From NCBI GenBank assembly GCA_003024785.1, contig PUQB01000042.1:430220-494219 (forward strand): 64,000 bases of DNA. The letters are read 5' to 3'. The stretch comes from Selaginella tamariscina. Lineage: Eukaryota > Streptophyta > Lycopodiopsida > Selaginellales > Selaginellaceae. Shown here piece after piece: positions 1-45,559 of this stretch. Numbering within the stretch: position 1 is the first letter of the stretch; each line of letters opens with the position of its first letter. The position numbers and the translations under genes were made by a program. The notes below the pieces were generated by a model. It was not told the DNA's origin. It saw nothing but the letters and a program-made list of their open reading frames with translations, and ran no database searches.

Positions 1-896
1 CTGTCCGGTATCCCAGTTACTAACATATGCAGCAGACATCGTGTTCCACGAGATGATGTTCCAGGCAGGGGCTCTCTCAAACGCATCTCTCGCCTTGGAC
101 AGGCACGACTTCTGTGTGTACGCCGCAATGAGTGCATTCCATGAGATCGAATCGCGTCGTGGGATTGTGTCAAAGACAGCCTTTGCCTCGTCGAGAAGCC
201 CATACTGTGAGAGTGCCTGGAGACCAGAGTTACACGAGACTATGCTCCAGTTCGGCATTCTCTCGAAAACCATCACTGCTTGCCACCAGTCTGAAGCCTC
301 CCCATAAGCTGCCATCATCGAGTTCCACAGACGACGTCTCTTTGTGGGGTATGATCGAAAAGATCCTTAGCCTTCCGGATATGCCCATTCTGGGCATATC
401 CCTTCATCATGGAGGACCACGAGACTGTGTCGTGTGCCGGCATTCTTCTGAAAGTCTTCTCCGTCTCCCGGAGACGATCATTTTGTGCATATCCGGCTAC
501 CAAGGTGTTCCACGATACCACATCCCGGTTGGGCATGTTCTCGAAAACCGACCTTGCCTTGTCCGTATGCCCGTTCTGGGTATACGTCCCGATCATGATG
601 TTCCATGTTAAACGGGTTCTCTCATTCATGCAATCGAAGACTTCCCGTGCATCTTCTGGGCTCCCACACTTTGCATACATTTGTAGAAGCTGGTTTGCAA
701 GGAAAGTCTTGTTTTGTACCTCGCTGGGAACAATACGTGCGTGTATCTTCCTACCTTGCCGGAGGTCTTTCCTCTCACCGCAACGTAACAAGAGTCTGTA
801 TAAGTGTATGCTGTCTCTCAGCTCAGGCTCTTCAAAATGACAATGCTTCCTTATGTTTACAACCATGAATCTGAACTGTCTTAACTGTGTCCTCAC
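1..896 (-). pseudogene. Pentatricopeptide repeat (PPR) protein, 5' part, frameshifted
   Basis: PPR proteins of this type bind organellar RNA and act in editing, splicing or stability. The frame from 896 to about 324 encodes a leader, then a short motif with LRQGRKIHARIV and FLANQLLQMYAKCG, then successive repeats with the signatures RDVVSWNTLVAGYAQN and HDTVSWSSMMKGYAQNG, all classic of plant PLS-type PPR proteins. Near position 324 the frame is lost by what looks like one missing base in a VSWN motif. The next frame continues with further repeats (RRDSISWNALIAAYTQ, WNIISWNTMSAAYV) to base 1. The gene runs off the window, so its C-terminal E/DYW domains cannot be seen. The wording of the repeats is very like Selaginella PPR proteins, which are extremely numerous. 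The frameshift is either decay or an assembly indel. Confidence 0.85.
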
Positions 897-931
897 TCAC
901 GGATTTAAGACGGTTTGCATCATTCTCTGAG

Positions 932-1328
932 CTACACAAGTCCACTTCCAATGTGTCCACAAAGCTTATATTTGCAGACACGAACTTTAAGATGTCTTCC
1001 CTCTCTAAACCTTAGAAACCGCAATTCTCCAAGCTTTTGGCGGGAAAAGCTGCAGTACGAGAGAGAAACGTACTGTAGTTCGCTTTCAAGAACATCGACC
1101 TCAAAGTCTTTGAAGGCGTTACCGGATAGATCCAATACTGATAACTTGGGTGCATTCACAGTCATCTTTATTGGAGAATCCCACCTGCTCGAAGCAGATT
1201 CAATGGAGAGCTGAGGGTCTCTAAGCTTTGATTCTCTATATTGAAACTAAGAGAATATATATCGGAGGCCTTGACACTCATCTCCCTCAACACAGGACAG
1301 CACTTGAGAATTCCCTCAAACCAGGTGC
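932..1328 (-). pseudogene. F-box/LRR-type protein fragment cut by a retrotransposon
   Basis: Reading leftwards from 1328, one frame gives WFEGILKCCPVLREMSVK followed by a stretch resembling NIENQSLETLS. After a small frameshift near 1210 another frame continues with IKMTVNAPKLSVLDLSGNAF and ELQYVSLSYCSF. These are the regular leucine-rich segments of plant F-box/FBD-LRR proteins, which supply substrate-recognition surfaces of SCF ubiquitin ligases. No F-box is visible because the 5' side ends exactly at the retrotransposon border at 1329. DNA beyond the other border (6298 onward) is AT-rich and shows no clear continuation. I call it a dead fragment; family assignment is moderate because only two or three repeats remain. 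Confidence 0.5.
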
Positions 1329-1516
1329 TGAAAGAGCAGATATATATTCAAAAATGTCAGATGTATTCAGCTACAAAAAAAACCTGCTTATATACAGGAG
1401 ACCTGTGCCATGTGGCACACATGTGACACATGGCACTGACACATGGGAGCCAGATCACCACCTATGTATCACTACGCATGTGTGTATATACACATGCATA
1501 TATATAGTATTTTACA
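1329..1516 (-). repeat. 3' LTR of the Ty3 element
   Basis: 188 bp, with TG at one end and CA at the other. It is unusually short for a plant Ty3 LTR. It shares the stretches GAGCAGATATATAT, CTGCTTATATACAGGAGACC and CTACGCATGTGTGTATATAC with the LTR at 6099-6293. Confidence 0.88.
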
Positions 1517-4500
1517 TTATCCCCCCTTTGCGGTTGTGTAGATAGTGATGGATCTAATGGTCCTGGATCTGTGTGAGCTGAACCATCTAAGGTATGACCA
1601 AATGTACTCAAAGAGTCTCGAACGACAAACCGTTTCATTTGAACCATGTGAACTATCTCAACCTCATGAGATCCCACCAACTGTACTTGATATACCTGAG
1701 GACCAACCTTTCGGAGTACTTGGTAGGGACCAAGCCACTTATGTAATAAACCAGTTGCAAGCCTAGGTGCAGTCAACTTGGGAAAATGTACCAGGACTAA
1801 GTCACTATCAGCAAAATCTGGTGGAATTTGATATCGTGCATTGTAAGAAGATTGTTACCGCATTTGAGCTCGACCAAGATGTTCAGCAGACTCTGCACGC
1901 AAAAGAGGCAAGACAACATCCAAATGTCGAGCCCACATTTTGCATCCTCGGCACGTGCCAAATTCGATGATAACCCCAATTCACTAGGCAACTTAAGATT
2001 ATATCCATACAATGCCTTGAATGGAAAGATACCAATTGAACTCTGAATGCCTGTTACATAAGCAAATCTTAAACATTGCAAATACCAATCCCAATCCGTG
2101 TGATTGAAGTTCACATACTTCGAGATCATACCCTTGAAGGTCCGATTCAATCGCTCCACCAAACCATCAGTTGTGGATGAACGGAGAGGCAAATGAATGT
2201 TTTACCCCTAACCTCTCACACAACACTTGGAATACCTCTGCAATGAAAGCGGGGCCATTGTCTGATAACATCCGCTCTGAACAAGAATGCTACAAAATTA
2301 TATTATCGAACAGAAACAAAGCTGTTAACATGGCAGTTGCATCTGGAAGAGCACCAACCTCCACCCATCGAGTTAAATAATCGGATACAACAATGATGTA
2401 TTGGTTACTGTGAGAAGAACGTGGAAAAGGTCCCATTAAATCCACTACAATTAACTCAAAAGGGCGAGAGACATTGATGGATTCCAACACCCCCATGGCC
2501 CGAGTCGTAGAGGAATTCCGAGTTTGACAAGTGGAACAGCTTTGAATATACCTGATCACATCACCATGCATGCTGGGCCAATAAATGATCAGCGCAGCTT
2601 CTCCAACACTCATTGGTGACCAAGATCCCAATTCTACATGCACAAATTTAAGGAAGCTCACACAAGGATTTCGACTAGCTCCCGTCTATGCATCCGATGA
2701 CCTCCAACAATAGGTGAATCATGATATGCTCGAAGAAGGTGTGGAACATATGTAGAGGGTACAGCCAAACGCCATCTGTCCTCTGGATTTGTCCCAATAA
2801 AATACAATAAACCATCCTGAAGTCGAAACTGAGCATGATATTGTCGAAACCGAGGTTCGGAAGACGGATTGCAAACGCATCGCGTAATTGCCTCGTCCAT
2901 GGTTCATGTTTTTGAGCATCCTGCCACTGTTCCAAGGATGGTAAGTCGGCATCGAATACCTGAGGGGCTTGTATCAAACCGAACGCTGCAGCTACTGCAT
3001 GAGCAGGCAAAGTGGAATCGAGAGGGGTGCTCGAGAAAGTGCATCCGCATCCACCATTGTTCGCCCAGGCCTGTGCACCACCTTAAAGTTATATACCTGG
3101 AGACGTAATGCCCATCTGGCTACACGACCCACTAAATTCTTCCGTTTTAATAAGGAAGTGACAGCAGCATGATCACACTCCAAAAGTGTTTCACTCCCAT
3201 GTAAGTAGGCATGAAGTCGTTCAAAACCCCAAACAGCAGCAAGGCATTCTTTTTCAGTAGTGGAATAATTCCGCTCAGCCGGCGTGAGTACTCGACTAAT
3301 GTAAGCCACCGGGTGTCGAATTGAAGAATCCACAGCATCAGTTTGCATCAATACACCACCAATACCAACATCTGAGGCATCTACTCGTAAAATGAACGGA
3401 CGAGTAAAATCTGGGTATTGAAGCAATGGTGGAGTTGTCAGGAACTCTTTTAACTGGTCAAATGCCTGCTGACACCTGCGAGTCCACCTGAAAGATACCT
3501 GTGGATGAACTAACTCCCGAAGAGGGGCAGTTCGATCAGTGAGATGATCGATGAATCGACCCAAGTACTGCACCTTGCCCAAGAAACGCTGGACTTCCTG
3601 TACTGTACGGGGACGAGGGAACTCTCGAACAGCTCGCAACTTCATTGGATCCACCTGTAAACCCTCTCGAGATATACGGTAACCCAAGTAAGTGGTGTCG
3701 GTCGAACCAAACACACACTTTTCAAGTTTCAACTTCAGGCCAACTTCTCGAAATCGATCAAGAACGCGCCGTACATCACGAATGTGATCCTCCCAAGAAC
3801 CAGACCCATGAATGAGCACATCGTCGATAAAATCGGCAGTGATATCAGGCATATCGGAAAGAAGCTCATCCATCATGCGTTGAAAGGTGGCAGGAGCTGA
3901 AGTCAATCCAAAAGGCATGACCAAAAACTCGTAAAGACCAAATGGTGTCCGGAAGGCCGTTTTTGGAATATCCTCCTCAGCCATAGGAACCTGCCAATAT
4001 CCTGATGCCAAATCCAACTTAGTAAACCATCGACTCTGACCCAAACGATCTAATAGATCGGCAGAGTTCGGAAGTGGATAGACATCTTTGATGGTAACAT
4101 CGTTAAGAGGTCGGTAATCCACACAAAATCGTAGAGATCCATCAGGCTTGGGAACCAAATGAGGTTCACATGCCCATGGACTCCGTGATGGACGACACAC
4201 CTTTACCAATCATATCAGTAACAGCTGTTCGCATGGCTGATAACTCTTTGGTGACCTGCGTCGAACCGGGACTTTGAAAGGCTTTGCATTGCCGTGGGTA
4301 TACAGTGTCGAGTCTTCACACGTGCACCTTGGGACAGATCAAATTTGAACAAACTTGCATACTGTGCTTAAGTTGTTCGATGCATGTGCTCGATACTCAG
4401 GTGACGGATCCGGCATTTGAACCTGTTGAGATGAACACCACCCCAAGACCGGAATCAAAGGAGCTGTATGCGTGATACAAACAGCAACAAGCTTCTCTGG

Positions 4501-4900
4501 ACGTAAAGGAACAGACTGCAAGACACAGACTCCAAGCGTAATACAGGAGGAGAGAGTGAAAAATCACACATACCTTTCGACTGCTTTAACCAATCACATC
4601 CCAGAATATGTCAAAGACCTGGGAAGGGACAACCCTAAGAGACCCAGAGGGAAACTTACGTTGGCACCCAAACCAGCGTAGTCGAAGTGGTGTACTGTGA
4701 TACTGCACGAGACTGCCCATTACCATATAAAATGTGCAAGACCTTATCTGCACGTCTTAAGGGTAATGAGCACCGATGCGCTAGAGTAGTTATGGAAGAC
4801 ATACTGGATCCTGTATCCACAAGCACTGTGACTGAAAGATCATTCACTCGTGCAGAAAATGTGAAAACTGGATGATCTGGTGGAACTTGCAAACCTTGAT
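1462..4900 (-). pseudogene. Ty3 pol: protease, RT, RNase H, integrase
   Basis: Reading leftwards, the protease active site LVDTGSSMS lies near 4790. Reverse transcriptase occupies about 4209-3480, with FTKLDLASGYWQVPM, PFGLTSAPATFQRMMD and the catalytic FIDDVLIHG (a YxDD variant). RNase H follows (FILRVDASDVGIGGVLMQ, TTEKECLAAVW) and ends near 2992. The integrase region has a His/Cys zinc-binding segment (SCSTCQTR), a core segment (IVVSDYLTRWVE) and, at 1776-1690, a C-terminal segment (LGPYQVLRKVGPQVYQVQL). No chromodomain is evident. Frame changes near 4650, 2990, 2660 and 2190 break the polyprotein, so it is not functional as read. Confidence 0.88.
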
Positions 4901-5039
4901 ATGCATAGCGGAAAAAGCATGGAGGTGAAGTCTCCATCGCACGGGATCCCTCCGTCGCCCGTACGATTACTGGTTTTCCGCAACAGATCCACTGCAAGAG
5001 AGGCTTCATCATCTGGAAGCTCATCATCAGACATAATGG

Positions 5040-6046
5040 CCGCCACAGGCACACCATCCGGAACATATGGTCGCCAGCCTGGATGTGGTGGACGCCAATC
5101 AGGATACACATCGCATGCCCGCCAAGTATGTCCAGGCGCCCAACAGGCCCAACAATGAACTTGATTGGGTCGACCTGCATTGTTCCGATTCCTCCTGTCA
5201 CGAATCCGTGGATTTTGACCACCACGGGCAGGAACTGGAGCAGGTGCAGGACGATTTCGTGGAGGTGGTCCACGGGGTGGGCCCCGAGGTCGACCACGAA
5301 AGGCTTGCGTGCGGGCACATATGCAGCAGCATCAACCTCCATTGGATCAGCACGCTGAACAAGAGGAGCAGGTAACCCAAGGGGACACGGCCCTCACCAG
5401 GCACCAACTCAAAACGTTGAGCTAGTGCAAAAGCTTCCTCCAATGTGGTAGGACGAAGAGCCCGAACGAATCGAACAAGTTCGGGTCGCATAGTTGGCCA
5501 TAACATACCGAGCTTAATAGGCTCAGGCATGTTAGGATATGCACGCCGAACTAAATCCCCGAACCTAATACTGAACCGCATAACAGACTCACCAGGATGT
5601 TGTCGTATCGCATGCAGTTGTTGGAAAGCATCATCTGAATCCTCAACTTTGCCAAACGTACGTTTGAGGCATTCCGTTAACCGATTACTATTGGCTTGAA
5701 TCTCCGCAGCCAATCCATTATACCACTTGAGCGCAGGGCCTTCCAAACATGTAGGGAATTCTCTGAGAGCACGGGCCTCATCCCAACCATGGTAACGAAC
5801 AATGACTTGGAAATGATCAAACCAGTGGTATACATCATCTCCCGGATCACCACAAAAAGATCGGGGTCGAACCCTCGGATTTGTGGCCTGTGAAGAAGAT
5901 GAAGGAGTACTAGAAGCAGATCCCCCGGCATGAGGCTCAGACGGGGAAGAGGAGGACGGACCCTCAACAAAGCGCTCCAACAACTTAGTTTGTGCATCAA
6001 TAGCAGTAGCAATAATGCTAAAAGCCGTCTCCATGTTCATTGTCAT
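5040..6046 (-). pseudogene. Ty3 gag (capsid and CCHC knuckle)
   Basis: From the ATG at 6046 the frame encodes a leader and then a retrotransposon Gag core (VYHWFDHFQVIVRYHGWD, ALKWYNGLAAEIQ, PGESVMRFSIRFGDLVRRAYP). It shifts frame near 5400. A zinc knuckle, CWACWAPGHTWRAC, is readable near 5150 in the shifted frame. Gag would package the element RNA. The gene directly follows the 5' LTR at 6099-6293. The first bases after that LTR (TTGGTGGAGAAGTTGGG) are the expected primer-binding position but do not match the common initiator-Met site. Confidence 0.82.
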
Positions 6047-6098
6047 GGAAACAAGAAAAGAAAAGGCGGAAGAAAGGAATACCCAACTTCTCCACCAA

Positions 6099-6293
6099 TG
6101 AAAGAGCAGATATATATAAAATGTCAGATGTATTAGTACAAAAAACCCTGCTTATATACAGGAGACCCTGCCACGTGGCACACATGCACACGTGGCGCTG
6201 ACACATGGGGCCAGATCACCACCCATGTGTCACTACGCATGTGTGTATATACACATGCGTATATATAGTATGTTATATATTACGTATCTTACA
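6099..6293 (-). repeat. 5' LTR of the Ty3 element
   Basis: 195 bp and similar to the LTR at 1329-1516 apart from small indels. It is followed on its outer side by GTGC, the 4-bp target duplication. Confidence 0.88.
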
Positions 6294-6297
6294 GTGC

Positions 6298-8929
6298 CAG
6301 ATATCAAGCAATTCACTTAATCAAGTGATTACCTCACTTTAAAACTTTGGTAGAATAAATGTTTTTAATTTTAATTTTATCAAGGATTCGTTAATTAAGT
6401 GGTGATTTCACTTAACAAGTGGTTACACAAGTTGAAGGTAATTCATTAATCAGTGGTTAATTCATTTTAGTTCTAAGAAGACATCCAAAAACATGAAATG
6501 ATATAATAACAACTTAGGATTTTATTATTTACTATTACTGCAACACTTTGAATTATTAATTATAATATTTTATATTTTTATTATGAGTAAAATTGCTAAT
6601 CAGACTTATTATACAACAAAGCTATTTATTAAACTTATTACAGGCAAAATTGATCATCAAACTTAAAGATAATAATAAATAATGAAGAAAATTAAATCAA
6701 ATAAAGTTGATCAATTAAAAATAATAAAAGAGTTTATTATTATTATTATGTTCACCATATTTATTATACAAAGTTGTTCATTAAATTTATAAGTTGTTTA
6801 TTAAATTTATTCACCAAACAACATTGTTAATTATAATAGTATAAAATTTATTATTTACAATAAAATCTTATATAATAAGTTAGCACTTGTGTGTGTTTGT
6901 GTGTCTTTAAAGCCCCATCAACAACCATTAATTTTAAACCCATGTGGCACTATTATCATGCATAACCATGCATGGTATGAATGCTTAAAGGTAAGAGTAA
7001 AATCATTAAATTAATATAATAACTAAATTAAAGGTCTAATTTAAGAATAAATTTATTAAGTTAAAGATAAAAAGCTGGTTAAGATATATTAATTAATAAA
7101 TTATTATTAAATAATTAAGTTCACCAATAATGAATATGTGTGATAATCTTAATCTATTTGTCACGAACGCTCCATCAGCAGCTATTTAAATCTTATTTAT
7201 GACTATCTTAAATTATTTTAATAATATCCAACCTAAATCTTATCCAACATGCCATTTTAAATCTTAAATATTTTAATTCTTAAACATCTGTCATTAACGC
7301 AATGTGAATAATAATAACTTAAAAGTTAGGTTAATCAGATATGTAATAATTTGAGAGAGTTAAAGAGAAAATTATCAATTAATATTTAATAACTTAATAT
7401 AATAAGAGAGAGAATTCCATATATTATTACATATACACTTTTGTAAGTAAGGATAATAACAAGGTAAAGATTTTTAAATAACTAAATGTAATTAAGCTTA
7501 TGCATAGGTTAAAGATTTGACTTAAATATCAATGTAAGAGTTTAAGGATAAATCACAATTAGGTTAAAGATAATAATTGAGTTAAGAGTAAATTTATTAA
7601 ATTAAAGATAATAATTAGGTTAAGTATTAATAACATAGCATTAATAGTTATGTTCATGCAAAGTAAAATCACTATAATTGGGTTAAGGATAAAACTTATA
7701 AAATTAAAAATAATAACTCAATTAAAGATCAATAAACTCACCAAGTTAAACATAATAACTGGGTTAAGGTTACAGTTCAACTTAAGAATAAATGCATTAA
7801 GTTAAAGATATTAATTAAGTAAAGTACTAATAACATAACATTAATAATTATGTTCATGCAAAGTAAATCACTATATAACTCATAAGGTTAAAAAAATAAC
7901 TCAATTAAAGATTTAATAAACTCACCAAGTTAAACATAATAACTCAGTTAAGAGTCCCTTCAAAGCCTGGGTAGTCCAATTTAGATACAAATTCATTAAG
8001 TTAATAATAATAAGAATGGTTAAATAAAAGCCTAACATAAGAGTTGAAGGATAAACTCATTATTTACGAATAACAAGAATGGTTAAATAAAAGCCTAATG
8101 TCAATTTAGATACAATTCATTAAGTTAATAATAATAAGAATGATTAATAAAAATCTAACATAAGAGTTGAAAGATAAATTACAATAACAAGAATGATTAA
8201 ATAAAAGCCTACATAGAAGTTAAAGGATAAATTCTTATATTACGAATAACAAGGGTCTAACTTAAGAATGAACTCACCAAATTAAGGAAATTTAACTTCA
8301 AATAAACTTACTAGGTTAATAAAGTTAATGCTTAAAATAAATTCACCAAGTTAAAAATAACATTAAATTAATGATAATTAAATTTACCATGTTAAATATA
8401 ACAATCGAATTAAATATTTATTAATTAATAAATTATTATTAAATAATTAAGTCTACTAACATTGGGCATGTGTCCTAATAAACACTAAATTCACCACATT
8501 TATTATAAGACTTATAAAAAGAAGATTATGCTTTTATAATAGGATAAAAAAATCTCTTTAATAAGAAAAAATTTATACTGAATAATAATTTAAAAGTTAA
8601 CTATATTATATTTTCACTAAATCAAGTTGAAGATATTATAAATTAAGTTGTAGATTTAGTTATAATGAATTATAAATTATAATAAATCGAATTAAATATT
8701 GATCAAGAACAAAATAAAAATAGACTTTAATAAGTTAAGGCGCGTGTTTTATATATAACTTATCCGGACTGTATTAATGTAAATCCTGTTAAGAGAGATT
8801 ACTAACCTCTTGGTAGAGAAGAATCAAACTCTAGTCTTCCATTTTATAGAATGCAAGCCGTCGTAATCAAGTTTTATTTAAACATATCATAATTATGAAG
8901 TTAAACAATCTTAACTTCGTTCATATACT
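6298..8929. other. AT-rich spacer with degenerate repeats, no gene
   Basis: About 2.6 kb of very AT-rich DNA without a supportable coding region. It is dominated by variants of GGTTAAAGATAATAA and AAGTTAAAGATAAT. The clearest structure is the tandem duplication listed at 7619-7957. At 8000-8270 three copies of a unit containing AAGAATGGTTAAATAAAAGCCT occur. Confidence 0.7.
7619..7957. repeat. Tandem duplication, about 190-bp unit
   Basis: Two diverged copies, about 7619-7775 and 7813-7957, share TTATGTTCATGCAAAGTAAA, ATAACTCAATTAAAGAT and AATAAACTCACCAAGTTAAA in the same order. This is an AT-rich satellite-like local duplication. Confidence 0.7.
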
Positions 8930-22609: not shown

Positions 22610-24520
22610 GAAGCGGCAGCGCGTGAACACGATTCTGTGGATGGGGTTGGATTCATGTGGTCCTTGACCAGCTAAGGATGTCTTGAAGGATCTTGAGGCT
22701 GTGTATGCGTTATGCCAGGAGCAGATTTCTTGTGGGATACGAGCAAATTCCAGACGCTTGTACAACCTACAGCGTTTTTCGGCGCCGATTCTTCGAGGGA
22801 ATTCAGGTACATAGGCAGGGCCAGAGCTGAAGATTTGTTTCGAGTGATGGTAGCTCTCCAAGGCGGTGCTGATTGCAGATTCAGGGCGCCAAAGGTTCTG
22901 GGAAGAGCACTGCAGTGAGCTCAATAGTTGGCTATATGCTCTTGGGAATGAAGCGGAAAGTGGTTTACATATGTGCCGCTCGTTTCATCACTGCTCCGGT
23001 ACACGTGTTGCGGCACGCATTGCTGGTGGCAAGCGGCGGTGACCAACGTTTGGCTTGTCTAGACAAGATGGAGCAGCTTAGCAAGTGGTGTTTAGCTCAC
23101 GCAAGGGATCCCTTGCTATTCGTGGTAGACGACTGGGATAAGTTTGAAAACTTCCAAATGAGCAGGCGGCTCTATGGAATGCAGTGTCGTGTCACCACAT
23201 CCTCGTTAAGACTTCGTCAACCAACAGCAGGGAGCGCAGGATATTTGCTGCCAGTGACAAGTGTCCTCCAACATTCGACTTCGACGGTCCTTACACGCAT
23301 GCTGAGCTCCAAACATGGATTGGACAGTCAAGCCTTCCGAATGACAAGCTAGAAGCACTTGACTGTCTAACTGGTGGGATGCCCGGCTATTGCGCTTTAC
23401 GAAGAAGTGAAAGGGGACGGCCGGCATTTCAGGCAGAAATTGAGGAGCCATATACAAGCAAGCTGTTTGAGAAACTGATTCGATTGCAGACCACCAAGGC
23501 GCAGCTTGCATCTGCCATAGAAATGGTGACTACAGGTGTCCGAGGTATTCATCTCAAGCAGCCGGTGGACTTGACGTGCTTCTACAAGGAGGGCCACAGA
23601 TTCAAGCTTCTGAGCCCATACTTGCGGACCAGAGCTGAGTACTGTATCATGGAGCAACAAAAGGAGTTGCAGAGCGGCCTCAATATGCTGCAGTCCAGAA
23701 TTGGGCAAGGGCTGTTAGAATGGACTGCCTTGTCGAGGCAGAAATCCTGCGCGAGCAGGCTGGAATGTGGAAGGCCTGGTCATAGCTGTGATGAGGTATC
23801 AAGGGAAGTTGTGGGATGGGTTACCATTTATGCACTACATGACTTACGAGCATGGCTGTGAAGCAGCTCTGCTTCGAAAGCTGCTGAAGGACGAGCTCAG
23901 TGAGGGCGTGTTGGTAGGACCTGTTGCCTTCAACGAGAAGCTTTGGATGTCATCTACCTCAAACTAGATGTGGAGACCGGCATCTTGACAATCAAGGCTG
24001 TGCAAATCACAATCTCCAAATGGAAGAACAAGAGAGGAAAGATCACACAGGGTTTGGCAGGAGGAGTTCTACCAAGGTGGCTCTCTGAGGAATGGGATTT
24101 AGAGCATCAATTCATTTACATAATGCCGAGAAGGTGAACGTGAAGGATGAGGGAGTTCCCGAGGACTTGGTCAGCTACGTTGCTGCTTGCCATGCGGACA
24201 ATGAGGAGGATACATATTATTTTGATACGCAATATGGAGCGGAGCAGTACGAAGGAGTGGATTTGGCTCAAGTTAAGAGCCATCCTGTTGAGTACAAGAA
24301 GCTTGGGGATGTCCACGAGCCTCGCAGAATTTGATAAGCTGCTCAACCTTCAGGAACCTACAAAGGTGGAGAAGAAGGAAGTTCAGCAGTGTGGTGGTAC
24401 GGTGGTGGAAATGGCCTTCCACGGGCATGCCGAAGGTGGTCTTGCACAGATGCAAAGGTTTATTACTGTTGTCCTGCTCATGAGCCCCAGACTGCCGAGT
24501 AATGCGTTTTCCAAATAGAT
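22610..24520 (+). pseudogene. Crinkler/RHS-type NTPase-nuclease, left-arm copy, degraded
   Basis: Closely related to the right-arm copy at 43490-45444 but broken into at least five frames. Recognisable parts are the AAA/STAND-type NTPase with its P-loop near 22885 (GAKGSGKSTAVSS), Walker B (LLFVVDDWDKFE, near 23120), then FDFDGPYTHAELQTWIGQSS, and the C-terminal restriction-endonuclease-like domain (EHGCEAALL, VGPVAFNE, AVQITISKW) at 23830-24030. The start region differs from the other copy and has an early stop. Crinkler (CRN) effectors of oomycetes and fungi and trypanosome RHS proteins share this P-loop NTPase plus Q-x-T endonuclease layout (established family knowledge). The role in a plant is unknown. 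This copy looks dead. Confidence 0.75.
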
Positions 24521-24954: not shown

Positions 24955-25020
24955 TATAAAAAGCACCAAGATTAATCTGGTCGATCTTGCTGGATCAGAA
25001 CGTCAAAAGAAAGACATGTA
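24955..25020 (+). pseudogene. Kinesin motor-domain fragment, left arm
   Basis: The frame here reads KINLVDLAGSERQKKD, the invariant switch II block (DLAGSE) of the kinesin ATPase motor. Nothing else of the motor is visible before microsatellite sequence begins. The inverted partner at 42535-42640 carries the same block and slightly more. Confidence 0.75.
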
Positions 25021-25176: not shown

Positions 25177-25185
25177 TTGCTCCAC
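25177..25185. repeat. Target site duplication, left (TTGCTCCAC)
   Basis: Nine bases identical to 34158-34166 and directly abutting the element ends. A 9-bp duplication is the hallmark size for Mutator-superfamily insertion. Confidence 0.93.
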
Positions 25186-25305
25186 GGGTTTGACATTTCT
25201 TCGAGCGCAGTTTGCCGAGCGTACGGATTTCCGTCATACCGGAATATTCCATTCCGTACAGAATATTCGTTTTCATATAAAGAATATTCTGGTGCGGCGG
25301 GCGGG
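25186..25305 (+). repeat. Left terminal inverted repeat of the MULE
   Basis: Compared with the reverse complement of the right end it shares GGG, TTCGAGCGCAG, a GAGC, GATTTCCG, GAATATTCC, TTCCGTAC, and at its inner border GAATATTCT followed by GTGCGGCGG. It contains three GAATATTC palindromes (25242, 25261, 25282). Confidence 0.85.
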
Positions 25306-25492
25306 CAATCATGGCGGCACGGTAATGTGTCAAAGTTTCACAAATTTGGGGGTTAATCTGACATATATATTTATATATTTATATTATATTTATGTTTTTA
25401 TTTTTTTAATATTTATATTTATAACTATAATTATATTTTTATATAAATACCGCATCAAACTAAATAAAAATTACAATAAAAACATAACTCAA

Positions 25493-28400
25493 TCATGAAG
25501 ACTCGTTTCCACCAGCCAGTGCCTCGTCGTTAATGAATGCATTGTTACGGTGTCGTGAACGTTTCTCCAAAATCTGTCTGTCGTAAACTTCGAACTCTTT
25601 AACCATTTTCTTTGCCATCTTATTAGCGTAGTCTGGTAGAACAATACTGAAAACATATTAAAGTTTAAAACCAAAGAAATGATAAAACAAATCTCACTCA
25701 TCATCTGATGACTCGTATGATCTCTCTTCTGCTGACTCATCTGATGACTCGTCGTTGTGCTCCACGGACTTCTCCGTAACAACATCCTTGTCGTTTCGAG
25801 AAGGCGGATCCTGGTCTCCATCGTTGTCGCTAGACAAAGGCAAATCCTGTGCTTCTGTTTCCATGGCCCTCTTCCACTCATCAAAAGGAGTAATCATGGA
25901 AACAACTTGATCATCCCCACCACCTTCAGCTGCTGTAACACTTGGAATGACCTTCCTGAAGACATCTCTGGCTGCTAAAACCAGATCCTTGTTGATGTCG
26001 ATTCCATAACCATGTCTCCCTGTGTGAAAAGCTGCAAGAATACTAGCACCGGTTCCCACTGTTAGATCCACAACAGTTCCACCAGGCTTTGTGAGCTTCT
26101 CCACTAGCATCGCAAACAACTTGGGAGATTTCGGGCCAATTGAAATCCTGAAAGTTACAATATTAGAACATGAGAAATAACAAACAACATTATACCATGG
26201 GAGCTGGAAATCTTCTGGCTCATCAAAAAGAAGAGTGTAGCGAGTGTCCAAGATCTCCTTGTTCTTGGCAACCTTAGAGTAGGGGGAACCAAAAATACAC
26301 ATGGCAATGATGCTTTCCTGAAAAAAAAACATTAAAAAATGACATTCTCAAAAAGAAGAATTACCTTTCTAGAGAAACGGTATCCCCATGACTTTGTCGT
26401 GTGCACATAACTCATCTGCAGAAACTTTAGCTTGCAAGTTTCTGCAGTGTTCTTCAAAGCTAGAACATCATCCGGTAGCACAAACACTACCACATGGCCA
26501 GCTCTGTCTAATATCCCGAAAGCAAGTTCACCAAGTTTCTTCAGCAAAGCATCCGAGAACTTCGTGTATTGATCCACCATCCCGCCTGCCTCAGCAACGC
26601 ATCCGGTAGGCGGGTCGATGACAACGAGATCAACAGCTCCCTGGATGCATTTTGGTGGAGGCTTCGCACCAAACACATGAATAGTCCAACTTGACTTGTG
26701 ACTCACGATCCAATCCTCAAGCTCCTTCAATCCTGACGGAAAAGGCCTTCCGGCTTTGAAGTACTGGACTGCAAGGTTCTCTGAATCTGCATGAATGATT
26801 TCCCAGCTTCCATTTCCCTTCTCAGGCATCACCATCCTCAACATATCATCTTCTTCCAATCCAGCCGAGATGAAGGATGGGGCTGAAGAAGAAGCTTGTC
26901 CCTTGCTGACCTTGCTCGCCGATCTAGCATACCTGATATCCATCTTCACATGGAGCTTCCTTGCAGCATTGTCGTTCTTCCATAATAGCTCTCGCCGATC
27001 ATCCTTGTGTATCTTATAGCTGGCCATCTCCCATTCGGGACAGTCACCAGGAAGGAAATCCAGCCAGAAAGGACAGTGTTCCACTTCGTAATCACTGATA
27101 TCACGTAACAACCGGCTCCACATGCTAGAATCCTTGGTAACATCCATCCACTCTTTGAAATCTTCAGGGAGTGCATCGTTCTTCCATTTTAAAAACCTGT
27201 AAAAATAGATAAAAATCTGTAAAGAAACAAAAAAAAAACTTGCCTGAATGCCATTCTTTTTGCAGATTTTTCCAGCTCAAATAGTCGAGGAGGTGGAATT
27301 GTCGCACCGAACTCCTTGTTCTCGAGCATGTTCTGGTACATATCCAACTTAATTTCATTGTGCATCTTCATATACCATGTCATGAACTCCTCTACATGCT
27401 CGACCAAAAGCTCTTTAGCTGCCTCCGCGACCTGGCACGATAAAACGAATAAAAATGAAAAATATAAATATTAAATTACCTGGAACCAGTAAGTAAAGAT
27501 GTGCAAAAACTTGATGAAGTCCTTGTCAGGCCAGCCGGTGACACCTTCCTTCTTGTCTTTCTCCGTCATGTTCACCAGCTTCTCAAGAACGCCACGTTCT
27601 TGAATGTGCACAAGCTTTCCAAGGATATCAACCTTGACGTTGGAAGGAAGCTGGGACTTCGCGAGCATTTGAAGCTTCTCCAGAGTTATTTGCTTCGTTG
27701 ATGGTTTGATAGTGATATCTGTGATCGCCTTGAACCAATCTTCACCGACCGCCGGATCAGCAATGGTGAGGAATTTGTTCATCCGAACTGTGAATGTCTT
27801 GTAAACGCTGGAGAGGATCTGAGATTCTGTCTGGTTTGGTTTTCTGTTCGCAAGTTTTGTAGCGATTTGTCGCTTCAGTTGATTCTGCAAAAGAAACCGA
27901 AAATCAAAAAACAGTCAAAAGAAGAAGAAAAGATTACCTCCCAAAAAATCTTCACCAATGTCGTCTTTGGATACTCGTACCAAACGTCTTCTTTTCTGTT
28001 CGATCTCCACACTTCCACAGCTTTTCTATCTTCCTCCGGCATCCCGCGAAGAACATGATCGGTAGAAAGATCTGCAGACTTCACACAACAATTCCGTAAG
28101 AACTGCAAGGTGTGAATGATTGTTGTAGGAACCACACGAGCAGTTGCTCTGCAAAACAAAACAACATTTATTTAGTATTTAAATAATGAAACAAACAAGT
28201 CACTTACTCATTCAACCGATTGCAAGCAGCGATTAGTCTCTTCTCCTCTTGCACTGTGGATGCTATGAGTGTTGCACGTACACGCAAAGTCCATTTCAAA
28301 CCTGGCTCTTCAGCAAGCAAAGTGTTCAAAGCAACCCGACGATGATTCCCATCCCACACCAGAAACTTTGCATCTTTCAGAAATCGATACCATGCAGAAA

Positions 28401-29124
28401 ATGCTGGCTTATGCAAATCCGCTTCAAACTCTCTATCGACCTGTGCTTCTGACTCATTCCAACTTCGGCGTTCGTCTGCACTCAGCTGTGGTCCGAAAGA
28501 TAAGGTGAACACTGACGTCTCCTGGTAAAATCCTTCAGCTCTAATCCATCCAACAAGGTCTTTCACGCCGTCCTTAGTGACATTCCTCAAACGTTGGTGT
28601 GGGAGCAACCTGTGAACCGGGATACGCGGAGGCTCACCAAGCTCAACTGGAACGTAGTGGTCTCGTCCTTGTAGCGATGTGTCAATATCTGTGTCATACC
28701 GAATAACAAGATCCCGAAGAAGCTTGGATGGAGCCTCAAGTGTCAGCCGCTCCGGAATTGCATATGATTCGGCAACATCCTCAGGAGCATCCAGTTTCCT
28801 CTTCTTATTGAACATTTTACTACCAAGATCAATATCCGGTACTTCCTCTGCATTACCGTGTTCTGCAGAGCTTCCTGCAATCTCCCTATTTCTAGGCATC
28901 CATTCACTCACCACAGTATGTTCATCAATGACTTGCGAACTATCCACAGGTTCATTGTTCGTCGGCATCATCTCTTTGTGTTGCAGTTGTTGCTTGGCGC
29001 CTCGGCCTCCTTTCTTGCCACGAGGTTTTGGAGCCATATCTGCAAGAGCTTCTTGGACGATATGTTCTTGAAGTGTCAAAGTCTTGTATTTATCTCGTAG
29101 TCTCTTACTCTGCCTTTGTCTCAT
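25493..29124 (-). CDS. ParB-like domain fused to N4/N6 DNA methyltransferase
   Basis: Eight exons join in frame: 29124-28208, 28148-27938, 27884-27480, 27431-27244, 27196-26365, 26317-26196, 26147-25698, 25646-25493. The product is about 1092 aa. All introns are 46-60 nt; the fourth is GC-AG. Residues about 30-110 are basic with a possible nuclear signal (NKKRK). Residues about 157-290 form a ParB/sulfiredoxin-like domain with IPVHRLLPHQRLR and VWDGNHRRVALNTL, the last resembling the ParB GERR box. A helical middle follows. The methyltransferase has motif IV first (LVVIDPPTG, 768-771) and the SAM-binding motif I later (DLTVGTG, 919-925, then HGYGIDIN), the beta-class order. The usual aromatic residue after DPP is Thr. 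The C-terminal region has a Ser/Asp/Glu-rich stretch. The expected activity is adenine-N6 or cytosine-N4 methylation of DNA; activity is unproven. Confidence 0.88.
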
Positions 29125-29460
29125 TCTGCAATTACAACAACTGATAAGTGTGTGTGTGTGAGTTTTTTAATTTATGGACACACATTTACTATATATGTAT
29201 ACCTATCAATATATATAGACACACACGCACACACACACATATTTATACGTGTAATGTTGTTTGTGTGTGTGCTCACTATATAATGTTCCTTGTGTATGTG
29301 TGTAATGTTGATTATGTGTGTGTGTGTGCAATGTTGTTTGTGTTTTGTGATGTGTCTGTGTGAGAGAATATGGGTATATTCATATCTCTTCACATGTATA
29401 TACAGACGAAAAAGCATCATCTCATATATACAAGTCTTAAATTCATATACTTATACATAC

Positions 29461-29517
<57 letters not shown>

Positions 29518-29628
29518 TCTTTTAAGTATGTATTTAAATATATATATTTATATATACACACACACATGTATACAAGTCTAATGTTGTATAATCATACGTG
29601 TGTAAAATGTTATTTATGTGTGTGCGCA

Positions 29629-29668
<40 letters not shown>

Positions 29669-30581
29669 TTTCCTGCCCGAATGGTGCGGCCGCCGCACCA
29701 TCCAGGCGGCAGATTTCCTGCCCGAATTGGCAGGAAATGTGTGTGTGTGTGTGTGTGTTTGCCGAAATCGGCAATAACTCATGCGTCGGAGGTGTGTGTG
29801 TGTGCACACGCGCGTGCGTTTGTGAATACAAAGAAATCCTACTGAATTTGCACATACATTCACAGAAATTACTATACACATATATAAGATTTTACCTGTA
29901 GCCATGTCGCCGTGACGCTCACACTAGCCTCTTGTCGCCGCAAAAAAAAGAACAAAAGTGCCCTCTCTCAACAATGGAGAATGGAGAAGAAGAATGGGTA
30001 GTCCTGAACCTTTACCCTAAAATCTAACACTTAACCCTTTGACCCTTAACTATAAAACTGTGTTTAATTAAACCATACAACAGTATATATAATACTTACG
30101 ATAAATAACATACTATATAAAAGGATACAAATACAAACACATATTTAAGTAAAAATTTGTATGTTAAAAAAACATATTATTATATAATTAAATAAATATT
30201 CGTGTAAAAATATGTATTTATAATTGACAATTGGTAGCGGAGCAAGTATTAATCAACATCTACATTTGATAAAATACTGGATCAAATAACTATATAATTA
30301 TAATAAATAAATTAACAGAATATAAACAAGTCATAAATAAATATGTCAGATGAATGTAGATTAGACACACATTTATTTAAAAGACAATAAAGATTGCTCT
30401 ATCTCTACGTGAAGTGCTATACTATATTAGCATCTAAGATCTATACGTTTCCTTGAATTAAATATTCGCCCACGTTGAGTCATGATTGTGAATTTTTGAA
30501 ATGGTAATATCCGATATTTACCAAAAGATGATTAAGTAATGCTGTTGTTTTTCTGTCACGTTTGTGGTAACTGCTTGCAAA
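29125..30581. promoter_or_regulatory. Divergent intergenic region of the MULE
   Basis: This 1.46-kb region separates the two 5' ends and must contain both promoters. It holds TA and CA microsatellites and, at 29631-29757, a foldback: a (CA)n arm, a GC-rich centre and a (TG)n arm. The centre has GGTGCGGCCGCCGCACC (29683-29699), two copies of GATTTCCTGCCCGA (29667, 29712) and the 10-bp inverted repeat ATTTCCTGCC/GGCAGGAAAT (29713-29738). Exact TATA boxes cannot be assigned in such AT-rich DNA. Short reading frames here are microsatellite artefacts. Confidence 0.65.
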
Positions 30582-33500
30582 ATGGCCAGGATTGTTTACG
30601 GCAATTTGGATCACGATGTTCCTGTGATAGATGGTGTTGGAATCATTCTTACTAATCAGATTAGAACGTTCTTTGGCATTTTTGATTGGCAAAGTGTTCG
30701 TCTTTTTAAACTTCTTCATGGGCAATCTGCTTTACAGATCGAAATAAACGAGGACCAAGATGCTGGAGGGAAGGATAATCCAGGATATGTTTTGTTACCG
30801 GATGAAGGACCATTGTTTAAGCTTGTCGTTGCTTCTGACTCTGAATACTCAACGTTGAAGAACCTTTTCACTTCTAATACCTGCAAAAAGGGAAGAATTC
30901 TTATCGAGGGTTCCACGATCATTCATACAAATGAATTGCCTATTGCGTATGATGGGGATGTCATTTTTGAGCTCCCTCCTTCCGAATACAAATACAAAGG
31001 AATGAATCGGAAAGAGGATGGACATACCTGGACAGCAGGAACGACCAGCAACTGGAATTTTCAAGCGAGGGTGTCCAGGAGCAAATGTGTTGGGAGCCTT
31101 TGCTGTATCAACCCGGACTGCCCTGCTTCTAAGGCAGGATTTCCGAACTGCACTAAATGGAAAGGATGTATTGTTTCCCCACCTTCAATCGACAAACTGG
31201 CAAAAGGATTGACATGTTTTTTCTGTAAAGAAAATCCATTGTGCCTTGAAGTTTGTCATGCTGTGGCGTTTTGCGTTTTCCCAGACGACATAACCAAGAC
31301 TAGATTGTTTATCCACCAGGGAAAACATTCACATCCAGTGGGTGATGGTGTTTCTGCATCGAACAAAGAAGAAATGCATATGGCGGTCCAGAATGCAACA
31401 GAAAGAACTCCCAGAGCTAGTCCAAGAGTCATCGAAATGGCAGCATGTAAAGATGCTATCTTTGGTTTTCTATTAGATAATTCTGAGCCTGGAAGTTGGG
31501 ATAAGCTCATGGATCATTTGCAACCATTATCAAACAATCGAAGGTACAATTAGAGTTTTACTTTGTGCTGAGCATTCTTTGATAATACCTTTGATGCAGA
31601 GTTCGTCAATGGGTAGCGTCCGCAAAGAGAACTGCTGCTGAAATGCCAGAGAATATTGATGGATTATTGGAGCTGAAACGAAGGTTGTCTATCCCATTCA
31701 TCCACGTGATTCACTATCCTGGGATGAATTTCCGTGGTTCAGACGACCAGGCATTAGTTTTTAAGATGACGGTTTCAGGGCCAGGTTCTGGAATCGATTA
31801 TGTAAGGATGTGCCAACCTCCTCTTGGCCCTTTGCAGAAGAGTTGGGTTCTACTTGATCACACACACCGTGTTGTTGATAAGTGGATCACTCTGGCATTG
31901 CATGTTTACGACCCAAAGTAAGATGTTATCTTTTTGTTGTTTGCTTAACTCTTTGATTATTTTATAGTGTGCGCCGATTATCCACCATTGCTTATGGTGA
32001 CATGAAGAGACAAACGGCTGGAGCTGTGGAGAAGTTTTTTCGTGCTATGTTGGATGTCTGTTCCGAGAAGGGAATCTACAATGTGCAGTTCGCTGGGTTT
32101 ATGTCCGATGAAGCAGGAGCGATCTGGCAAGCAATTAGGAATGTGTTCTTTAATGGCCAAGAAATTCCTGGACGTGAACGGAGCTGTATCTTTCACTATG
32201 AACAAGCCATACAACGTGTGACAAGGAAGTGGGTCCCTCTTGAACATCAACAACAACATCTTCAACTTTTGAGATCATGGCCAACAGCCACATCAACAAC
32301 TGATCGTGAAGAAATTGAAAATAATCTTTTCCGCTTTTGGAATGAAAATGTGAAGGATGTTGGAGTTATGCAGACGTGGTTTTCATGGTGGGAAAGACAG
32401 AAGAATCATATTTCAAATGTTGTTCTTGAAAGCATGCCGGAGAATGCTGCAAGGGTTGTGCCCATGACAAACCAGTCGGAGTCTGTTCACGGAAGATGGA
32501 GGAGGGCTAGAGATTCAAAATACATTTCATTGTACCAAGCTACAATCCACGACCTGACTGAATCAGTGCGACAATGTGCTCTTGTGAAGGCTTTTAGAGA
32601 TGGAAGGTATAGTGGTTCCGGGCCGACTTCAGAGGAGCTCTCAGCAAGGTTCGAGAGAAGAATGTCAAATGCTAACTCAACAACACCTACAGCAAAGGTT
32701 ATCATCGACTTAGTTGAAGATGTTGCTCCATCAAGCATGCAGGATACTGCTTTTGTGGCTGCCACGAATGTTGAACATCGCACTGTGCAAAGAAATATGG
32801 GGTCAGAGGCTGAACGATCCCACCGACCGGACATCTTCTATAGTGAACAGGTTATTCCAACACAGTGTAGACGGAAGCGACGATTGGATTTTCAACTTGC
32901 AGAAGAACATGAAGAATATGTTCTGGTTGAAGAACAAGATGTTACACCTGGACAATGGGCGATTAGAAGATGTGGTGAAAGAAGTTCTGTGAAATGTCTG
33001 GCAGGCTTTCCCTCTTCAGGAGGTCAGTGGAGTGCTTGTGACAAAAAGATCAGTCCTAGTGGTAATCGAGTGGCTGCTCCTTGTTTTTTTGGAAGGATCA
33101 GATACAATGACAAAGAAACTGGTGAAGAATGCTTTCGCTCACAAATGATGTATTTTTGTCCAACAAACATGCTTTGCAACAGACATCCAAGACCAACTAT
33201 TGTTTCTCCGCCAGCTTCTACCTCGGTTTGGAAAGTTCAAGTGGGCACGAAGCTGATAGCAATGGAGATCAATGATCTGGCAAGATCAGGTTTTATGCTA
33301 GCTGGGCTTCCTTCAGCTCATGCAGGAGTGCCAGGTTTTTCAACACCTCATGTTCCTTCAGTTCCTGTTGGAGTCACTGGATTTTCAAACCCCCCCCGTG
33401 ACCTCCTGTTCCTGCAAGTGGTCGTGCAACAAGAACACCTTTAGGGATGTCTAAGAAACAACAGGTAAGTTTTGAAGCATGTTTGACGTTGGGAGCATAT

Positions 33501-33791
33501 GTCGCAGAAGTTGACGTGGTTGATCCTCCAACATGCATTCGCTTCAGAGTATGTGACAACGACCATACATCTGCTTGGGTTGTCATTTGTAGCGCACCAT
33601 CTTGTTCATGCTCGGAGTTCTGCAATGGTCGTCAGTGGGTGCCTTGCAAACATATGTATTTTGTTTACAAGCGTGTACTGGGAGCTGATCCTCGAGTTGT
33701 CAAGCATTTGCAACGTCGTACACTTGCACCCCGTGAACTAAGTTCTTTATTGATGCTACCAAGGAACCTCCATCCTCCACCATCTATTTAG
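30582..33791 (+). CDS. MULE transposase with SWIM zinc finger
   Basis: Four exons (30582-31543, 31600-31917, 31968-33397, 33445-33791) join in frame to about 1018 aa; an ATG at 30564 would add six residues. The N-terminal half has a Cys-rich segment (LCCINPDCPASKAGFPNC) and a CxxC...HxH-type finger ending GKHSHP, like the WRKY/FLYWCH fingers of MULEs. The DDE core shows LLDHTHRVVDKW (Asp407) and GFMSDEAGAIWQAI (Asp474), followed by CIFHYEQAIQR. The catalytic Glu is not pinned down. At residues 957-973, CSCSEFCNGRQWVPCKH is a CxC...CxH SWIM finger, diagnostic of MULE transposases. The third intron is inferred: the 47-nt GTGACC...TTTAG after a poly-C run is the simplest way to reach the SWIM exon in frame. 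Its role is cut-and-paste at the element ends. Confidence 0.88.
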
Positions 33792-33953
33792 TGTGTTTGG
33801 TTTGTTTTCAAACAGCTTCGGTTTTATATTTGTTATTTCAAACTTATAATTTTCAATATAAATTTTAATGGTAATTTTATGTTTAGCATATTTTTAAGTA
33901 ATTTAACATATATTTTCTTTAAATACAACAAAAATATACTACCATATTTTGTA

Positions 33954-34157
33954 TGCGGCCGCCGCACTAGAATATTCTAGAATATTCTTGAAAATTTTGG
34001 AAGGTCCAATTGTGTGTACACTTGGCAGTACGAAAAATTTCCGTACAGAATATTCGAGGATATCTAGACGGAAATCGTACGGAACAACGGAATATTCAAG
34101 AATATTCGGAAATCTAGGTCAAGCTCGTTGACCTGCGCTCGAATTTCGCCGTGCCCC
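33954..34157 (-). repeat. Right terminal inverted repeat of the MULE
   Basis: The outer 25 nt (34133-34157) are the counterpart of 25186-25210. The inner border is TGCGGCCGCCGCAC at 33954-33967. Five GAATATTC palindromes lie within (33970, 33980, 34048, 34090, 34100). TTCCGTACAGAATATTCG occurs at 34039-34056 and, in the same orientation, at 25252-25269 in the left end. Confidence 0.85.
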
Positions 34158-34166
34158 TTGCTCCAC
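34158..34166. repeat. Target site duplication, right (TTGCTCCAC)
   Basis: Exact copy of 25177-25185, directly outside the right end of the MULE. Confidence 0.93.
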
Positions 34167-43400: not shown

Positions 43401-43489
43401 AATTGTATTTGGATAATAATAAGATAATTCTAGATTCAAAAGATTATAAATTGATATGCATAATAATTAGAGCAAGGATAATTATCATA

Positions 43490-45444
43490 TATGTATTTGG
43501 AAAACGCATTACTCCGCAGTCTGGGGCTCGTGAGCAGGACAACAGTAATAAACCTTTGCATCTGTGCAACACCACCTTCGGCATGCCCGTGGAAGGCCGT
43601 TTTCCACCACCGTACCACCACACTGCTGAACTTCCTTCTTCTCCACCTTTGTAGGTTCCTCAAGGTTGAGCAGCTTATCAAATTCTGCGAGGCATCGGTG
43701 GACATCCCAAGCCTCTTGTGCTCAGGATGGCTCTTAACTTGAGCCAAATCCACTCCTTCGTACTGCTCCGCTCCATATTGCGTATCAAAATAATATGTAT
43801 CCTCCGCATTGTCCTCTGCCTCGTCACTCATTGCTAATGCATGGCAAGCAGCAACGTAGCTGACCAAGTCCTCGGGAACTCCCTCATCCTTCACGTTCAC
43901 CTTCTCAGGCATTATGTAAATGAACTGATGCTCTAAATCCCATTCCTCAGAGAGCCACCTTGGTAGAACCTCCTCCTGCCAAACCCTGTGTGATCCTTTC
44001 CTCCTCTTGTTCTTCCATTTGGAGATTGTGATTTGCACAGCCTTGATTGTCAAGATGCCGGTCTCCACATCTAGTTTGAGATATATGACATCCAAAGCTC
44101 TCTCGTTGAAGGCAACAGGTCCTACCAACACGCCCTCACTGAGCTTGTCCCTCATCAACGTTTGAAGCAGAGCTGCTTCACAGCCATGCTCGTAAGTCCT
44201 GTAGTGCATAAATGGTAACCCATCCCACAACTTTCCTTGATACCATCACAGCTATGACCAGGCCTTCCACATTCCAGCCTGCTCGCGCAGGATTTTTGCC
44301 ACAGACAAGGCAGTCCATTCTAACAGCCTCTGCCCAATTCTGGACTGCAGCATATTCGAGGCTGCTCTGCAACGCCTTTTGTTGCTCCATGATACAGTAC
44401 TCAGCTCTGGTGCGCAAGTATGGGCTCAGAAGCTTGAATCTGTGGCCCCTTGTAGAAGCACGTCAAGTCCACCGGCTGCTTGAGATGAATACCTCGGACA
44501 CCTGTAGTCACCATTTCTATGGCAGATGCAAGCTGCGCCTTGGTGGTCTGCAATTGAATCAGTTTCTCAAACAGCTTGCTTGTATATGGCTCCTCAATCT
44601 TCTGCCTGAAATGCCGGCCGTCCCCTTTCACTTCTTCGTAAAAGCGCAATAGCCGCGGCATCCCACCAGTTAGACAGTCAAGTGCTTCTAGCTTGTCATT
44701 CGGAAGGCTTGACTGTCCAATCCATGTTTGGAGCTCAGCATGCGTGTAAGGACCGTCGAAGTCGAATGTTGGAGGAGACTTGTCACTGGCAGCAAATATC
44801 CTGCGCTCCCTGCTGTTGGTCGACGAAGTCTTAACGAGGATGTGGTGACACGACACTGCATTCCATAGAGCCGCCTGCTCATTTGGATAGTTTTCAAACT
44901 TATCCCAGTCGTCTACCACGAATAGCAAGGGATCCCTTGCGTGAGCTAAACACCACTTGCTAAGCTGCTCCATCTTGTCTAGACAAGCCAAACGTTGGTC
45001 ACCGCCGCTTGCCACCAGCAATGCGTGCCGCAACACGTGTACCGGAGCAGTGATGAAACGAGCGGCACATATGTAAACCACTTTCCGCTTCATTCCCAAG
45101 AGCATATAGCCAACTATTGAGCTCACTGCAGTGCTCTTCCCAGACCCTTTGGCGCCCTGAATCCGCAAATCAGCACCGCCTTGGAGAGCTACCATCACTC
45201 GAAACAAATCTTCAGCTCTGGCCCTGCCTATGTACCTGAATTCCCTCGAAGAATCGGCGCCGAAAAACGCTGTAGGTTGTACAAGCGTCTGGAATTTGCT
45301 CGTATCCCACAAGAAATCTGCTCCTGGCATAACGCCATACACAGCCTCAAGATCCTTCAAGACATCCTTAGCCTGGCCAAGGACCACAGAATCCCAAGCC
45401 TCATCCACAGAATCGTCATGCATGCGCTGCCTCTTCATGCCCAA
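43490..45444 (-). pseudogene. Crinkler/RHS-type NTPase-nuclease, right-arm copy
   Basis: The first frame (45444-44401, 347 codons) carries a short Lys/Arg-rich start, RYIGRARAEDLFRVM, the P-loop GAKGSGKST (residues 97-105), Walker B LLFVVDDWD (173-181) and the segment HILVKTSSTNSRERR. A 2-nt loss near 44450 and another near 44235 break the frame. The rest reads through 44230-43500 and holds a restriction-endonuclease-like domain: Glu in HGCEAALL, Asp in ALDVIYL, and Q-x-T in KAVQITISKW replacing the usual E-x-K. This P-loop plus Q-x-T layout is shared by CRN effectors and RHS proteins. Only two frameshifts separate it from a full-length reading of about 640 codons, so it is the better-preserved of the two copies. 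Confidence 0.78.
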
Positions 45445-45559
45445 ACCCTAGCCCTAGCTGTGCCCTAACAAAGAATCTATTGGAAGATTATTGGGATTTA
45501 GTATATAATTAATTATATTAATAATCATTAAATTTTAATGAATATTTTATTTTGTTCAC

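Follow-up and report, generated by a model that had tools for sequence, protein, structure and literature searches.

Repeated copies of a MULE-type transposon pairing its transposase gene with a divergent ParB/DndB-like, methyltransferase-fold gene

Accessory proteins joining a ParB part to a methyltransferase have been reported in transposons of brown, green and red algae, and giant EnSpm elements with accessory genes are mentioned for red algae (PMC12477816). Among Mutator-like elements (MULEs), the accessory genes mudrB, mutB and vanB/vanC have been described (PMC6446971), Ulp1 occurs as well (PMC13317346), and SET genes are also found in oomycete MuDR (PMC12730594). Among the titles listed in literature searches that covered few subscription journals, none was recognised as dealing with a ParB-methyltransferase of a land-plant transposon. 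The present analysis concerns a 64,000-nucleotide stretch of DNA from contig PUQB01000042.1 (the window), of which positions 25186 to 34157 are an 8,972-bp cut-and-paste DNA transposon of MULE type, here named family A. This element has inserted repeatedly, with 9-bp target-site duplications (TSDs), and combines a transposase gene with D-D-E, CxxH and SWIM motifs and a divergent gene for a ParB/DndB-like protein with the fold of an S-adenosylmethionine (SAM)-dependent methyltransferase. A preliminary description of the locus had treated a second full gene in a MULE as rare, which mudrB, mutB and vanB/vanC show to be overstated.

That description had delimited the unit correctly: its coordinates and its TSD are both exact, the 9 bp of TTGCTCCAC abutting both ends of the element. 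The matched termini that it claimed are also present, both reading GGG...TTCGAGCGCAG, although the inverted repeat is short and imperfect, and the two genes are indeed divergent inside one unit, the methyltransferase gene on the minus strand and the transposase gene on the plus strand. The features of the window copy are:

25177..25185, no strand: left copy of the 9-bp TSD TTGCTCCAC (sequence)
25186..34157, no strand: whole MULE-type element, family A (end-to-end alignment of copies)
25200..25210, plus strand: left terminal inverted repeat core TTCGAGCGCAG (end comparison)
25242..25289, no strand: left subterminal array of three GAATATTC palindromes (25242, 25261, 25282)
25493..29124, minus strand: ParB-like/methyltransferase accessory gene, eight coding exons, 1,092 aa, intact (open frame and splice sites); exons 29124-28208, 28148-27938, 27884-27480, 27431-27244, 27196-26365, 26317-26196, 26147-25698, 25646-25493
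25698..26147, minus strand: exon 7 of this gene, with SAM motif I, VVDLTVGTG (PF01555; weak MboIIA and 2zie alignments)
26365..27196, minus strand: exon 5, with putative motif IV, VDLVVIDPPTG (phmmer alignment to MboIIA)
28208..28767, minus strand: section of exon 1 that is ParB/DndB-like and contains the DGNHRR motif (DndB match below the cut-off, and motif)
29631..29760, no strand: intergenic segment of (AC)n, GC-rich palindrome and (GT)n, differing among copies (copy alignment)
30582..33791, plus strand: MULE-type transposase gene, its frame broken in the window copy; exons 30582-31543, 31600-31917, 31968-33791
33389..33400, plus strand: frameshift of the window copy (the 18 other copies differ at this site)
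33970..34107, no strand: right subterminal array of five GAATATTC palindromes (33970, 33980, 34048, 34090, 34100)
34133..34143, minus strand: right terminal inverted repeat core TTCGAGCGCAG, read on the minus strand (end comparison)
34158..34166, no strand: right copy of the 9-bp TSD TTGCTCCAC (sequence)

The host assembly searched for further copies comprises 300,702,823 bases in 1,391 contigs. The first 501 bases of the element gave 155 first-look candidates and the last 501 bases 132, the best 40 of each being scored, with identities of 98-100%; among the matches listed, at least 22 left and right ends form pairs of consistent span, 8,839-9,052 bp apart. Twenty copies were fetched, 18 of them with both ends in view, and counts out of 19 refer to these 18 and the window copy. 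Fifteen of the 20 align end to end in one piece (97.5-99.1%), three in two pieces (L015, which contains a run of Ns, L023 and L028; 95.7-99.8%), and two are cut off by the fetched stretch (L011, which has inserts, and L020, at a contig end). Both genes are present, between the same termini, in all 18 further copies viewed end to end, the N run of L015 (29135-31051 in window terms) hiding the first ~470 bases of its transposase gene. As ungapped pairwise identity among copies is 99.5-100%, except in L028 (98.5-98.8%) and L015 (N run), the family A burst seems to have been recent.

An exact 9-bp TSD flanks 9 of the 19 copies, that of L018 is exact after a 1-bp shift and that of L022 agrees at eight of nine positions; the other eight have no full TSD, two of them with exact matches of 6 and 7 bp. 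When left and right flanks of different copies were paired as a control, 1 pair in 342 agreed, which is due to a flank shared by L012 and L013. The right flank is identical in these two copies, which points to chimeric assembly or to recombination of one copy with another. Some joins may for this reason be artefacts, and one could suppose that the whole unit is an artefact of assembly or that the methyltransferase gene lies in a separate nested insertion, but the 18 further copies, found on other contigs, match the window copy collinearly over the whole element (the N run of L015 aside) and two related families, described below, agree. For the family taken together this explanation has already been refuted, and its probability is negligible. 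The refuting condition named beforehand, a methyltransferase gene in a separate insertion or two genes that never occur together, fails: other copies and other families both speak for one transposon carrying both genes, as had been proposed.

The related families came from a search of the host genome with the PF01555 profile, which gave 739 first-look candidates, the best 150 of which were scored and all lie above the cut-off. The window copy is absent among these 150, and most of them show a 106-aa frame like that of L042, i.e. of a family other than the window's. Detailed reading covered three further loci. L042 (C744) contains the family B element (767-8509, 7,743 bp), which has the exact 9-bp TSD TTAAAGGCG on both sides and the methyltransferase and transposase genes on opposite strands, divergently arranged. 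Its transposase is 40.5% identical to that of family A over the first 565 aa and its methyltransferase protein 23-41% identical, in pieces. L043 is a second family B copy with both genes, 96-98% identical to L042 outside a repeated middle (one end only in view), and L041 (C516) represents a decayed third family, C, in which both genes are present as well. L043 (C571:471900-480100) is inserted in a gene that, as read by eye, encodes a plant-type cytochrome P450.

Because the same divergent pair is found in families A, B and C, the pairing has outlived deep divergence of the transposases (33-52% identity to family A for the main L041 and L042 pieces). It is old rather than the result of a chance insertion, and the methyltransferase gene seems to be a durable component of the element. 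Gene capture is frequent in MULEs (PMC13317346), and the second gene might be a captured passenger with no function for the element, but its recurrence in three families with such divergent transposases, along with a frame that is open in 10 of the 19 family A copies, makes this very improbable.

The assignment of the element to the MULEs comes from several sources. The transposase has, as recognised by eye, D, D, CxxH and E followed by SWIM, which is the MULE order, and these motifs are shared by family A and L042, except that the SWIM stretch of L042 itself is disrupted. The MULE domain profile PF10551 matches a cut-out core of family A over profile positions 2-96 of 99 (E 0.0029, 18.4 bits, cut-off 27.6), while no match to it was obtained with the long family A transposase pieces (683 aa and 1,037 aa) or with the family B pieces. 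The SWIM profile PF04434 matches an inverted family B fragment beside the L042 element (L042:9416-9901; E 0.0031, 17.5 bits, cut-off 19.6) and family A at E 3.3. TSDs in the MULE superfamily measure 8-11 bp and typically 9 bp, the length found exactly in nine family A copies and in L042. The terminal inverted repeats of the superfamily are represented in family A by the short imperfect repeats; in family B the outermost bases were matched by eye, and the scored alignment is that of the GAATATTC part. The MULE-order motifs, together with the 9-bp duplications, point to a diverged MULE-type element, its profile matches lying below the cut-off.

The intact SWIM-finger transposase of the preliminary description had to be rejected for the window copy: its frame stops after 918 aa, owing to the frameshift at about 33,389-33,400, ahead of the SWIM motif, which lies in another frame. 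Three of the 19 copies (L009, L022 and L024) have the full 1,037-aa frame open, and in one copy both genes are open together. Some of the indels in the copies may be assembly errors.

As for the second gene, described earlier as an intact eight-exon ParB plus N4/N6-methyltransferase gene, its structure stands: the window copy has eight coding exons, GT-AG or GC-AG introns and 1,092 codons in an open frame (1,091-1,092 aa in the 10 open copies). Of its labels, ParB has a DndB match below the cut-off behind it, and motif IV of the methyltransferase is not DPPY. PF01555 matches aa 897-950 above the cut-off (E 3.5e-8), covering positions 165-218 of the 221 of the profile, that is the SAM motif only, and the phage methyltransferase family phrog_67 matches aa 638-1034 (E 1.9e-10); alignments to MboIIA and 2zie are weak (E 0.77 and 0.74), neither being significant. 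Class beta amino-methyltransferases (N6A/N4C) have motif IV before motif I, with a motif IV consensus of (D/S/N)PP(Y/F/W). The family A protein has the SAM motif I of this class and departs from it in motif IV: phmmer sets VDLVVIDPPTG against VQLAVIDPPYN of MboIIA (a match whose score is negative on its own and not significant). The motif is DPPT in all 19 family A copies and DLPN wherever it was read in families B and C. With these residues in the DPPY position, SAM binding may persist in an enzyme that is altered or inactive, and methyltransferase activity is uncertain.

The ParB-like part is the weakest of the domain assignments. It draws on the DGNHRR motif and on a match to PF14072 (DndB) with an E value of 7.1e-4 on a 202-aa piece of exon 1, below the cut-off, and no ParB-family Pfam profile matches the family A protein. 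DGNHR is retained in L042 and L043 and reads DRNHR in the decayed L041; the ParB and motif-IV pieces of family B gave no Pfam match and no PHROG match. The invariant DPPT of family A and the DLPN of families B and C, with SAM motif I and DGNHR retained, would suit a catalytically inactive methyltransferase fold that, like mudrB, binds DNA to assist transposition or integration and modifies no base. We regard this as possible but somewhat unlikely, as SAM motif I is well conserved across the diverged families, which suggests that SAM binding still matters, and as variant motifs can be active.

Candidate target sites for such a protein lie near the ends of the elements. The GAATATTC palindrome occurs eight times in the family A element, three times at the left and five times at the right end, five times in the family B element (three and two at the ends) and five times near the ends of L041; in families A and B none lies in the interior, the confinement to the ends having been read on one representative element for each of the three families. 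In dinucleotide shuffles of the 330-base ends, the mean number of sites is 0.026 for family A (both ends) and 0.024 for family B, with maxima of 2 and 1 in 2,000 shuffles. Three left and three to five right sites are present in 17 of the 18 other family A copies, and L018 has three left and two right. Since both genes run toward the ends and the arrays lie behind them, the arrays are unlikely to be gene promoters.

Two stretches of the right-hand family A array, at 33970-33992 and 34090-34107, resemble heat-shock elements, with five and four alternating GAA/TTC units. L041 has similar runs of 3, 3 and 5 units, and family B none of three or more; outside the element, the other 55 kb of the window contain one run of three. 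Heat-shock elements were considered and set aside: each of the 18 GAAnnTTC sites at the ends of families A, B and C has TA at its centre, which makes an element-specific palindrome the simpler reading. The GC-rich palindrome of the divergent intergenic region (29631-29760) varies, with a long form in some copies and a short form in the rest, and its GCGGCCGCCGCAC core is present again at 33955.

If the ParB-like domain targeted the GAATATTC arrays and the methyltransferase marked adenines or N4-cytosine there, the element would possess a self/non-self label that evades silencing based on 5-methylcytosine and licenses transposition in a vascular plant; in this specific form we think the proposal rather doubtful. 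An active base-modifying enzyme might instead work widely on host DNA and alter host chromatin beyond the element, as could be taken from the 739 genome-wide PF01555 candidates, of which at least 150 are matches, but the terminal arrays suggest a local target, and we consider such a host-wide role improbable.

The two genes differ in their load of lesions. Across 17 copies there are 22 indels in the methyltransferase exons against 64 in the transposase exons, and 26 substitutions against 50; intact frames number 10 of 19 against 3 of 19 (p 0.038), and the ratio of nonsynonymous to synonymous singletons (pN/pS) is 0.36 against 0.81. An accessory role for the second gene is best supported, because the gene has been retained beside the transposase in diverged families, with fewer lesions. 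The explanation that we favour, with our confidence about evenly divided, is a recently active two-gene MULE-type transposon whose second protein is an element-targeted accessory or anti-silencing factor. Movement of the element would depend on the transposase, supplied in trans to most copies. Its partner would be a retained accessory factor that recognises the element, the GAATATTC arrays close to the two ends being plausible sites. There it would bind the DNA, amino-methylate it, or both, and so keep the element from being silenced or assist its transposition. Such anti-silencing would be comparable to that of VANC in Arabidopsis VANDALs, by a different route.

Several points weigh against this explanation. 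The expression, DNA binding and methylation ascribed to the second protein are predictions; its ParB assignment hangs on a below-threshold match and one motif, and with DPPT or DLPN instead of DPPY catalysis may be lost. The GAATATTC sites could be sites of the transposase, or host sites, given their likeness to heat-shock elements in family A and L041. The nonsynonymous and synonymous counts of the methyltransferase and transposase genes do not differ significantly (p 0.15), the methyltransferase introns have 0 substitutions in 353 bp, and the left end has 0.19 substitutions per kb per copy, below the 0.47 of the methyltransferase exons. As these non-coding neighbours hold even fewer substitutions, the lower lesion load of the methyltransferase gene may be regional or technical, not selective.

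The preliminary description had further supposed that the element acquired a prokaryotic modification enzyme. As a recent event this found no backing within the limits of the searches made: in predicted proteins there was no homologue of the full methyltransferase protein (8,000 candidates scored, E 0.001) or of its core (819 candidates, E 0.01), a protein search with the transposase core gave no match (2,461 candidates, E 0.1), a tblastn search of phages gave no homologue, and none of four pattern matches in viral contigs was confirmed. The missing homologues would say little on distant or eukaryotic relatives, because the methods need shared exact words. Matches in NCBIfam were all below threshold, and the best in PDB had an E value of 0.74, the others being weaker.

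In the window, the element has a NACHT-like ATPase gene fragment on either side (22873-23861, plus strand; 43436-45447, minus strand); the two fragments are similar, are oppositely oriented and have profile matches below the cut-off. Directly to the left of the element lies a kinesin-motor-like exon fragment (24960-25018, by eye). Gypsy-type retrotransposon sequence is found at 2992-6151, with a pol region containing reverse transcriptase and RNase H at 2992-4209, and at 61466-63607, with a zinc-knuckle gag-like frame at 62606-63607. A pentatricopeptide repeat array also lies within the window, and together with the P450 gene at L043 it points to a land plant.

If the second gene works, this would be the genome of a probable vascular plant with at least 150 amino-methyltransferase profile matches (739 candidates at first look), at least partly on mobile elements. 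The GAATATTC arrays would then offer a concrete local test for the disputed N6-methyladenine (6mA) and N4-methylcytosine (4mC) in plants, and MULEs may have, beside VANC, a second way of fighting silencing.

Among known MULEs, maize MuDR shares the 9-bp TSD of family A and differs from it in gene order; neither a ParB nor a methyltransferase domain is known in mudrB, and VANC is not known to contain a methyltransferase domain. Like family A, MuDR (mudrA/mudrB) combines a transposase with a second gene (PMC6446971), and the VANDAL/Hiun MULEs with VANC combine a MULE with an accessory gene and short motifs in non-coding parts (PMC5735166; PMC10398659), but VANC brings loss of DNA methylation (PMC5735166), unlike what is proposed for family A. 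Pack-MULEs, which have captured gene fragments and no transposase, are unlike family A, where transposase sequence is present in 18 of 18 copies and open in 3 of 19. DNA transposons with a TET/JBP dioxygenase or a SET methyltransferase also carry an enzyme of epigenetic marks, though a different one (PMC12730594), and the bacterial Bce_0392, likened by description, is a prokaryotic fusion of ParB and an adenine methylase (PMC5512222). The family A protein is not categorically new, ParB-methyltransferase accessory proteins being in print for algal transposons (PMC12477816); what is new is the MULE-type carrier, in a probable vascular plant, with many copies and candidate target sites. As in the algal elements, a gene for a ParB-like protein and methyltransferase lies opposite the transposase gene, with a sub-threshold DndB match and an atypical motif IV in family A. 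In Ectocarpus, Sola1-1_Ec32 likewise encodes, inside a DNA transposon and on the strand opposite to the transposase, a ParB-like protein with a 4mC/6mA-type methyltransferase of about 1,100 aa (1,104 against 1,092 in family A); the two are likened by description, the carrier being a Sola1 element of an alga in one case and a MULE-type element with a 9-bp TSD in a probable vascular plant in the other (PMC12477816).

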